DNA from: Streptomyces sp. NBC_00513
GTDB lineage: Bacteria > Actinomycetota > Actinomycetes > Streptomycetales > Streptomycetaceae
DNA: 64,000 bases
Direction of reading: 5' to 3'
Assembly (NCBI RefSeq): GCF_041431415.1
Contig: NZ_CP107845.1
Span: forward strand, 124,001-188,000
Each line of letters starts with the position of its first letter. Position 1 is the first letter of the stretch. A model generated the notes under the pieces. It worked only from the letters and a program-made list of their open reading frames with translations, had not been told where the DNA came from and did no database searches. Shown here piece by piece: positions 7,282 to 8,856 of the stretch. Both the position numbers and the translations under genes were made by a program.

Positions 7282-7692
7282 TTACCCGGAACGGAAGCGG
7301 GAGCTCCAGCCGCGGGCCCTCTCAGCCGTCTCGACGGCCTCCTGCTCCAGGCGGTCCCGCTCGGCCTGTTCCGCTGCCGCGACTTCCACAAGGTCGAAGC
7401 CGCGGCCCGGGTCTTCGCGCGCGCCTGGCCGAAGCCCAGCAACAGCAGCAGAAGCGGCAGGAACCGGCACCGGCCGCAACCCCGGCAGCGGCGGCGCAGA
7501 CACCGCAGCGAAAGGGGCCGAGGGCACAGCGCTGATCGGCGCGGGGGCGGTAGGCACAGGAGGTTCTGCCGTCCCCGTCGTCTCGGAAGGGTGTCGTACA
7601 GAAGTAGTCGGCGTGCCGTAACCGGCAGGACGGCCCTTTGGCCGCCAGGTCACAGCGGCACCGCAGCTCGCGTCGGACCGGTCTGGAGGCAA
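7282..7692 (-). CDS. Possible small proline/alanine-rich protein
   Basis: Open frame of 136 residues. The first 95 are proline/alanine/valine-rich low complexity (APISAVPSAPFAAVSAPPLP). The last 40 form a plausible charged helix, REDPGRGFDLVEVAAAEQAE then RDRLEQEAVETAERARG. It may be the surviving C-terminal part of a larger protein, since it abuts the left end of the mini-transposon at 7718. No family is recognised, and the opposite strand is also open here. Confidence 0.3.
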   Translation of the reverse strand: MPPDRSDASCGAAVTWRPKGRPAGYGTPTTSVRHPSETTGTAEPPVPTAPAPISAVPSAPFAAVSAPPLPGLRPVPVPAASAAVAGLRPGAREDPGRGFDLVEVAAAEQAERDRLEQEAVETAERARGWSSRFRSG

Positions 7693-7717
7693 GTTTTAGG
7701 GCTAGTTGTGGAGCAAG

Positions 7718-8532
7718 TGTGCCTCGCAGCGATAGTTGTCACTTCGCAGAGGTAGTTGTCACCTGTCCCGTCGCAGCGTAAGTGGCGGATTCTCAGCGCT
7801 TCGCAGCCTGACCTTGCGGATTCTCACTTGTTCCAGAGCGGGACCAAACGGCAAGGTCTCCGCCGGGCAACGAGATGAAACGCCATCCTCGTGGTTCTGT
7901 GACCTGCCAGGCTTCGAACGATGCGTCGGCCGAACACGTCAAATGCATGCCTCCGTCGAACACCATCCGCAGGACGCCGGACTTGAACACAACCGCGGAC
8001 AGGACCTTCGCCCCGAACAGAGGAAGAGCCGCAGCCACGTCCTGGGACTCAGGCGTCAGAGGCAGCCCAGGACTGGTGTGGAGTGGCCCTGCCGAGAGCC
8101 GAGCTGGTGCTTCCAACACGACTTCCCACCCTGCGTCCAGGACGAGGGTCAGCCGAAAGTCGATGCTGATCCTGACGACACTCAGGCCTCGGAGGTTCAA
8201 GATCCAGCGGTCCTCGTGCTCGACCGGTTCCACTTCAGTGCTCATCACCACACCATGGTCCACTCCGTCGCAGGCACCAAGGGATTCTGCTCCTCCTCGG
8301 CATCACCCTCTGCCGAGCCGTCGATGGTCACTGCCTCTGGATGTTCCGCAGAAGCCAACTTCGCTGAGGCATCCCGGCCAGCCAGCGATCTCCGAAGCTG
8401 GTGACAACACGATTGAGACCAGCTCAGAAGTGACAACTACCGCGCGCATCTGGTGACCACCACCGCTGCGAACCCGCCGCACAGAACCACGTCACGACGC
8501 ACAACTGGTGACATCTATCGCTGCGAGGCACA
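7718..8532. mobile_element. 815-bp mini-transposon with TG..CA inverted repeats and 5-bp target duplication
   Basis: The left end is TGTGCCTCGCAGCGATAG followed by TTGTCAC. The right end, read on the minus strand, is the same 25 bases with one mismatch (ATGTCAC). Directly outside both ends is GCAAG (7713-7717 and 8533-8537), a 5-bp direct repeat expected from transposition. Inside each end there are further TTGTCAC/GGTGAC plus CGCAG-like copies (at about 7735, 7757 and 7775 on the left; about 8401, 8431, 8453 and 8505 on the right), like the multiple transposase-binding sites of Tn7/Tn402-type elements. The only gene inside is the DUF6188 gene; no transposase is present, so the element must be mobilised in trans. 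Confidence 0.8.
7793..8245 (-). CDS. DUF6188 family protein, 150 aa
   Basis: Begins MSTEVEPVEHEDRWILNLRG at ATG 8245. It shows the family pattern: an N-terminal beta-rich part that responds to a 'vdyrLTLVLD..wEVVLE' motif (here IDFRLTLVLDAGWEVVLEAP), a central VVFKSGVLRMVFDGGMHLTC, and the C-terminal signature FEAWQVTEPRGWRFISLPGG followed by DLAVW. Length is normal for the family, whose function is unknown. It is the sole cargo of the 815-bp mini-transposon, lying between the arrays of terminal sites, with both ends about 75 and 290 bases from the repeats. Whether it helps the element or is a passenger cannot be told. Confidence 0.7.
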   Translation of the reverse strand: MSTEVEPVEHEDRWILNLRGLSVVRISIDFRLTLVLDAGWEVVLEAPARLSAGPLHTSPGLPLTPESQDVAAALPLFGAKVLSAVVFKSGVLRMVFDGGMHLTCSADASFEAWQVTEPRGWRFISLPGGDLAVWSRSGTSENPQGQAAKR

Positions 8533-8856
8533 GCAAGCCGGACCGGAGCCGTCGGGGACGGCCGCAGTCCGCGCCGCCCTGGCCGCGAAGGAGACCTCTC
8601 ACCACGGCTATTGCGTGGACAGAGAGGTGTCGTTTTTCAATTCGGGCTTGCCCACGGGGTCTGACCTGCCGGAACGCGCCCGCTCCGGTTTCGGGGGTTC
8701 ACACCTCCGGCAGTACCTCCGGTGCAACTCTCAGCACGCCGAGGGAGCCTGGGCAAGCCTGCGAATCGACAGCCAGACCCCCCTTGCCCGCCATGGAACC
8801 CTCGTCGGTCAAGGGGTTGCCCTCCTGTCCTTCGCAGGCTTGCCCAGCGTGGTCCG
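8533..8856. repeat. Non-coding stretch with GCTTGCCC/GGGCAAGC octamers
   Basis: No convincing gene. It contains scattered octamers in both orientations (8646 GCTTGCCC, about 8751 GGGCAAGC, about 8838 GCTTGCCC) and an imperfect copy near 8783. It follows the mini-transposon target duplication. Confidence 0.45.

Follow-up and report, generated by a model that had tools for sequence, protein, structure and literature searches.

An 815-bp feature at positions 7718-8532 of the window, by which is meant the whole 64,000-nucleotide stretch of Streptomyces DNA analysed here, has the ends of a transposon, contains a DUF6188 gene and carries no genes of transposition, and it raises the question of how this gene came to lie between these ends. 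In the explanation that fits best, which draws by comparison on element families, their ends and duplications, Tns genes, a preferred insertion distance and a pair of empty and occupied sites, the feature is very probably an element of one family (family A) into whose left end an element of a second family (family B), bearing the DUF6188 gene, was inserted before deletions fused the two, with transposon ends as the target of family B. Read in this manner, the puzzling 815-bp cassette becomes a readable series of events.

The outer ends carry the marks that the first-pass annotation had described. The 25-bp inverted ends (7718-7742 and 8508-8532) pair at 24 out of 25 positions, in accordance with the single mismatch given there, and internal sites of the TTGTCAC type accompany both of them: the left end (7718-7763, forward strand) consists of a TG terminus and two TTGTCAC sites located 20 bp apart, at 7736 and 7756, and the right end (8400-8532, reverse strand) contains four GTGAC(A/C) sites, near 8400, 8430, 8452 and 8507, together with the terminal inverted repeat. 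The termini are thus TG/CA with several repeated sub-terminal sites, as in Tn7-like transposons. In the 8.62-Mb genome of the same strain (four contigs), an 18-bp A end occurred at five places with up to three mismatches, compared to seven matches for the reversed pattern at the same threshold; four of the five, with no or one mismatch, are the paired ends of two elements, and the fifth has three mismatches. Pairs of TTGTCAC within 8-36 bp number four in this genome and one in the reversed control, and all four sit at the ends of the window element and of an A2-type element at C1:240-244 kb, C1 being the contig of the window. A transposase had been reported as missing, and none was found in 7718-8532: two TnsB queries run against the strain's own genome gave no match here, and the three other open reading frames overlapping the feature gave no Pfam match.

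The expectation of other copies with similar ends and of an autonomous relative was borne out. A 7282-bp element with the duplication GGAGT on plasmid NZ_CP109338.1 of Streptomyces sp. NBC_00455, whose left end is identical to the window A end at 22 of 25 positions, carries TnsA, TnsB, TnsC and TniQ: its genes are annotated or matched as TniQ (Pfam, 1.6e-25), AAA/TniB (TniB, 3.3e-6), transposase and TnsA-like endonuclease (TnsA N-terminal domain, 5.5e-4, below the Pfam cut-off), accompanied by an alpha/beta hydrolase gene, and its TnsB, which has no Pfam match, is named transposase in the record. The TnsA-side end of this autonomous element is 72% identical to the right end in the window over 143 bp. 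Further A elements were found on the plasmid-size contig C2 of the own genome (1409 bp, duplication GCGGG, ends as in the window element, with an unrelated 226-aa reading frame without Pfam match) and on the S. virginiae plasmid NZ_CP108865.1 (L195 3471-7106; 3636 bp, duplication CCTTC). Since relatives share the ends and carry tns genes, the A ends can be assigned to a TnsA-bearing Tn7-like family, of which the 815-bp feature is, as far as its termini tell, a non-autonomous member; its movement in trans by a helper is plausible. Ends of this kind had been ascribed to Tn7/Tn402-like families; the Tn7 part of this assignment was retained and the Tn402 part abandoned because the relatives carry TnsA. 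The Tn402/Tn5053 group has TniA/TniB/TniQ and a resolvase and no TnsA, and TnsA-like genes lie beside the ends in relatives of both family A and family B, which argues against membership of either in that group. The 19-bp A end (at most one mismatch) is present in 5 of 392 Streptomyces genomes, the own genome counted, and a scan of genome contigs with the A-end pattern gave 14 stretches, among which one, in Streptomyces katrae (L050), was taken up for study and several, in other phyla, look like chance matches.

Some of these relatives deserve a separate remark. The cargo of the S. virginiae A element includes a 902-aa NB-ARC/TPR protein. Two A elements, L034 6134-6901 of Streptomyces sp. NBC_00455 and L035 6116-6889 of S. 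uncialis, lie within a few bases of the 3' end of the same plasmid gene, a possible attachment site of family A; the S. uncialis stretch yielded no more than a TnsA fragment. The own chromosome has a TnsA-TnsB-TnsC-TniQ-TniQ operon (C1:1198586-1206801; L070 6587-14802), whose TnsB (C1:1199707-1201737, at ≈ 1.20 Mb), the sole TnsB relative found there, is 58% identical to the TnsB of A and 31% identical to that of B. This operon was rejected as the own-genome partner of A or B, no TTGTCAC-type site being found with the pattern used in the surrounding 18 kb, nor any ends.

The 5-bp target duplication of the Tn7-like transposons is seen in family A as GGAGT, GCGGG and CCTTC and, in a repeat context, as GCAAG in the window. 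Both copies of GCAAG announced for the window are in place (7713-7717 and 8533-8537) and form a probable target duplication of the outer element, although the flank, made of a short GCAAGTTGNAGGG-type repeat, itself holds GCAAG repeats, for which reason this duplication is less clean than those of the other A members and weaker as evidence. It could be argued that GCAAG stands on both sides by virtue of the local repeat and not of transposition, so that movement of the composite as one unit may never have occurred. This is a possible reading, though a doubtful one: it agrees with the GCAAGTTGNAGGG-like repeats that make up the flank as well as its C1:214 kb paralogue, and with the failure to find a second copy of the whole composite among 99 other genomes, but the GGAGT, GCGGG and CCTTC duplications of the other A elements lie outside such a repeat, and the left flank of the window element matches the paralogue (87% identity) right up to the TG terminus.

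This paralogue, C1:214.05-214.63 kb, corresponds to 7377-8766 of the window, lies approximately 82 kb away on the same contig and lacks the A element. Beyond the point of the TG terminus, it runs on through an extra ≈ 36 bp of GCAAG repeat into GCAAGCCGGACCG, which, as compared by eye, also stands to the right of the window element; the right-flank alignment is good only from 8615 on. An empty site had been proposed as a check, and the own genome offers one in part, i.e., a paralogous site without the element, but not a clean pre-insertion site, given the extra repeat and the late resumption of the right-flank alignment. The paralogue bears an A2-type terminus (TGTGCCGAGACACG) at a place at which the window lacks one. 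The right end of the A2-type element in the paralogue was not found, and in other genomes the joined flanks of the window matched pieces only. The duplicated segment appears to have been hit twice, each copy (the window and C1:214 kb) by a different A-type element.

The interior of the feature yielded a point beyond the first reading, namely that 7764-8368 derives from a second transposon. These 605 bp are the left part of a family B mini-transposon (98% identical to L002 and 96% to L003), from which the right 84 bp, as measured against the intact copy C1:216074-216762, are missing. The unit opens with the B left end (7764-7836, forward strand), TGTCCCGTCGCA-N12-GATTCTCA plus a second GGATTCTCAC site; its similarity to the copies in L072 and L071 ends at 8368, and the following 31 bp (8369-8399), which do not match the inner element, are a probable deletion scar between the B remnant and the A right end. 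The B right end, and with it any second copy of a duplication made by B itself, is gone from the window. Intact DUF6188 units of the form TGTCCCGTCGCA...TGCGACGGGACA are present in the own genome with 689 bp and AAGTC on both sides and with 650 bp and CGTGA on both sides, and a third whole unit of 682 bp with GCCGG is present on a plasmid of Streptomyces sp. NBC_01650. The DUF6188 gene, earlier proposed as a possible cargo, is therefore better described as part of a separate Tn7-like mini-transposon (650-690 bp when whole, with its own ends and 5-bp duplications) that is truncated in the window.

The gene itself (7793-8245, reverse strand) codes for 150 aa from a conserved MSTEVEP start, chosen from an alignment of 32 sequences, or for 156 aa from an upstream GTG start, and the protein matches Pfam PF19686 with an E-value of 9.9e-35 and 119.9 bits against a curated cut-off of 27.1. 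Comparison with 16 homologues gave dN/dS values of 0.17-0.41 and no internal stops, which indicates that the gene has been kept by purifying selection. A B-type 12-mer (at most two mismatches) lies within 150 bp on the expected side of 15 of 16 DUF6188 genes (those of the fetched loci with an alignment of at least 135 aa, identical copies removed). The search for clues to function gave no PADLOC match, no clear fold match and no paper in the literature search; nothing was found in support of the suggested role in protecting the host replicon. Like MITE-type or cargo-only elements, the window element is short, has no transposase and shares its ends with autonomous relatives; it differs from them in having a conserved gene under purifying selection and in resembling a fusion of two elements.

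Family B is more widespread than this remnant. Of 392 Streptomyces genomes, 57, among them that of the strain itself, contain the end pattern TGTCCYGTCGCA-N12-GATTCTCA (at most two mismatches), against two matches for the reversed pattern. The 77 distinct B-end matches analysed are those in fetched loci (genomes, plasmids and the window), a subset of the pattern matches that contains false positives owing to the loose pattern. An inverted partner end and an exact 5-bp duplication were found for 24 of the 77, against an expectation of 0.11 from the 108 candidate partners; L151 and L157, both among these 24, resemble another end type. Autonomous members of 4997 bp (L147 and L148), 4994 bp (L149) and 6020 bp (L100) have TnsA-, TnsB-, TnsC- and TniQ-type genes, and in L147 and L100 this gene set is combined with a 5-bp duplication, the matches to TnsA and to one TniQ lying below the Pfam cut-off. 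The TnsB queries detected no TnsB of the B type in the own genome, so that the B copies there were perhaps moved by a helper that is now lost or located elsewhere.

Motif classification of the sites occupied by B elements recognised a TG terminus, belonging to class A, A2, C or D, in 31 of the 77 B flanks, and in 29 of these 31 it lies 80-86 bp from B, the exceptions being the window (46 bp) and a damaged D end (78 bp, counted from an inner motif). Eight other flanks belong to class E, two lie inside another B end at 113 bp, and 36 were left unclassified, two of which were later placed at 82 bp (L072) and 85 bp (L150); L071, at 84 bp, is a further case. The class motifs were set by eye from the same flanks, and two counts depend less on them. 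In a motif-free count over 78 flanks, TGT was found at -83/-84 in 21, at -64 in 15 and at -44/-45 in 18, with a mean of 1.17 per position, and TG alone was mildly enriched at 80-86 bp (57 observed, 34 expected). The full combination of TG at 80-86 bp with TGTC/TGGC near -64 and -44 was present at 18 of 47 better-supported ends and at 10 of 18 ends from a second group of loci, taken subsequently from other genomes, compared to a mean of 0.15 and a maximum of one in each set for 93 shifted controls, in which shifts of 18-22 were omitted on account of the 20-bp period of the sites. As the query that yielded the second set contained one D end besides a B end, this set is mildly biased to class D; of its ten positives, two can be clearly assigned to D ends, and one (L204) proved to be a tandem repeat and not a clear terminus. 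The other 29 of the 47 ends lack the combination, and by inspection some of them are false or decayed and others have no recognisable resident end. The preferred orientation of B is with the left end outward.

The three DUF6188 copies of the own genome illustrate both the rule and the departure of the window from it. Two lie 84 bp (L071) and 82 bp (L072) inside A2-type ends, the latter counted after discounting a 1362-bp insertion with a TTAG repeat that later split this end, and the window copy lies 46 bp inside the A end, which is approximately 37 bp shorter than the ends holding B at 80-86 bp. In the window, the cores are found at -27 and -7 instead of -64 and -44, a shift of the whole array by 37 bp towards B, such as a 37-bp deletion next to the B left end would produce.

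The elements surrounding B are themselves delimited by duplications in several cases. Enclosing inverted repeats with an exact duplication were found for 5 of the 77 matches, against 0-2 in five controls, a difference that is weak by itself, and the resident calls rest on the cases with long inverted repeats. In L036, the resident has TCCGC and an inverted repeat of 25/25 and B has GCCGG, at a distance of 80 bp; the corresponding values are AGACT, AGCGT and 82 bp in L147, GGTGC, CGTGA and 84 bp in L071, and GACCC, TCTGT and 83 bp in L050, while in L150 the resident has GCTGC at 85 bp and no duplication was found for the B end. A comparison of empty and occupied states is provided by a 232-bp MITE-like D element, TGTAGGTTCTCATCAG...GAACCTACA (L199 591-822, L200 and L147), which is flanked by different 5-bp duplications in three genomes: it is empty in G429 (GCGCT) and G645 (CGCCC) and occupied by B at position 82 in G350, and the occupied element (L147 2114-7347) measures 5234 bp, i.e., 232 + 4997 + 5. 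The assignment of classes C and D to transposon ends is based on inverted repeats and duplications and not on transposase genes; class C is represented by one complete element and class D by a 6588-bp candidate and the 232-bp element, the latter in three genomes. To judge from these nested duplications and lengths, the targets of B are mobile elements that were present before it.

Several nested loci show features of their own. The 1226-bp A element of Streptomyces katrae NZ_JZWV01000900.1 (L050 1726-2951), with GACCC on both sides, is placed, by eye, among GGGGATGACC-type CRISPR-like repeats and houses a 965-bp B element 83 bp from the A end. The A2-type element in L071 (4616-8404, G000:C1; 3789 bp), which holds a whole DUF6188 B element, has aldo/keto-reductase-like, oxidoreductase-like and TetR-like reading frames and lies in front of an apparent Ku gene, all of these names being given by eye. 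The D-type candidate mentioned above (L156 1567-8154, ACTCC on both sides) contains GMC-oxidoreductase-type genes and departs from the distance rule, with a B-type end 444 bp inside it. At L106 10184 and L109 8636, B elements sit 113 bp inside another B-type end, and family B therefore does not fully avoid ends of its own type.

A fixed distance would follow automatically if A and B used a shared attachment site outside the elements, each inserting at its own fixed offset and B thereby coming to lie 83 bp inside A, C or D, and the L034 and L035 elements near one plasmid gene 3' end could mean that A does use a fixed site. This explanation is nevertheless improbable, as the class D flanks fall to background identity outside the TG (0.30 outside against 0.59 inside, seven ends), and in G350 three B copies, two of them identical and the third related to them (86-90% in TnsA/TnsB), occupy unrelated surroundings, each beside a D-type end. 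Still harder to accept is an insertion of B at random, in which copies inside mobile elements survive because they are harmless there and are carried along; part of the B ends indeed have no recognisable resident end, and mobile elements nested in Tn7-like transposons are described as enriched and common in the accessible part of PMC8649781, but survival fixes neither a distance of 80-86 bp nor an orientation. Equally hard to credit is a plain non-autonomous A element, without a second transposon, that obtained DUF6188 as cargo by some unspecified capture, for although both A ends and the direct repeat are present and the DUF6188 gene is the sole recognised cargo, the unit begins exactly at a B terminus, and recurs with both ends and its own 5-bp duplications at three other places, and the B-type 12-mer accompanies 15 of the 16 DUF6188 genes compared.

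The preferred reading, B inserted into A and fused with it, can be told as a sequence of events, of which the two deletions and their order, the helpers acting in trans and the manner in which B TniQ/TnsC would read resident sites or bound proteins belong to the proposed part. A non-autonomous B element with only the DUF6188 gene would have inserted into the left end of a non-autonomous A element, probably not at random, with the transposon end serving as attachment site. Insertion would take place ≈ 83 bp inside the TG terminus, past two TGTC/TGGC cores that lie 20 bp apart and ≈ 44 bp from the second of them, B entering with its left, TnsA-side end outward; the cores look like transposase-binding sites of the resident element, and TniQ (or TnsC) of B may read these repeated sites or the proteins on them. 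Later, one deletion would have removed ≈ 37 bp beside the B left end and another the last 84 bp of B with an additional stretch of unstated length. Because these two deletions fused A and B, the DUF6188 gene would now lie between the two ends of A. The arrangement suggests that mobile DNA here takes other mobile DNA as its landing site.

A wider reading can be held with about as much doubt as confidence: B would be a transposon of transposons, whose selector reads a generic feature of ends (cores spaced by 20 bp or a foreign bound TnsB), finds unrelated ends and inserts ≈ 83 bp inside them with its left end outward, at a place where the host element would stay mobile and carry B, and DUF6188 would be kept for the benefit of this hyperparasite. 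The independent insertions point to transposon ends as the site, and one preferred distance across unlike end families is a testable target rule. Nesting of B also suggests how cargo, here DUF6188, can be captured inside other transposons, and the B insertions are natural substrates for asking how TniQ/TnsC might read an array of repeated transposon-end sites.

Among the closest known systems, the Tn7-like transposons resemble both families, since the autonomous relatives carry TnsA-, TnsB-, TnsC/TniB-like and TniQ genes and the ends have TG, several repeated sites and 5-bp duplications; the difference is that many B copies lie inside other transposons' ends and not beside a conserved host gene. 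IS4321/IS5075-type end hunters use an IS1111/IS110-type recombinase and enter the terminal repeats of Tn21-type elements. An identity of this type was rejected for B, which has TnsA/B/C, TniQ and 5-bp duplications, the likeness being limited to transposon ends as target. According to the accessible part of PMC10293859, Tn7-like elements attach at genes, for instance glmS, comM or a tRNA gene, and in the accessible literature their targeting proceeds by one of three routes, a conserved gene to which they home, the selection of replication forks, or RNA guidance. A mobile element that uses another transposon's end as its site is a known case (PMC8269217); in the accessible part of that paper, the system is like B in this choice of site and differs in being another kind of element with one target sequence family, whereas B is of the Tn7 type, makes 5-bp duplications and is found ≈ 83 bp from the terminus in several end families that do not resemble one another. 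No report of Tn7-like elements homing to the ends of other transposons was found among the titles and abstract openings of the open-licence literature, which is not proof that none has been published.

Class E (L161 2301, L159 12861, L067, L107, L115, L158, L168 and L173) has a GCTAC...TGTCAC...GTAGC-type palindrome approximately 50 bp from B, the distance to the GCTAC-TGTC motif being 48-51 bp. In the two of these eight loci that were checked, the class E site directly follows a resolvase gene (L161) or directly precedes a DUF4158 gene (L159), DUF4158 being the N-terminal part of Tn3-type transposases. Tn5053 and Tn402 target other mobile elements. Elements of the Tn5053 type are res-site hunters, transposons with 5-bp duplications, in the accessible part of PMC7765201. 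Family B shares the 5-bp duplications with Tn5053/Tn402, and its class E sites near resolvase and DUF4158 genes recall the res-site hunters; it differs in having TnsA and in that its commonest recognised target is transposon ends. The class E flanks thus suggest a second kind of B target.
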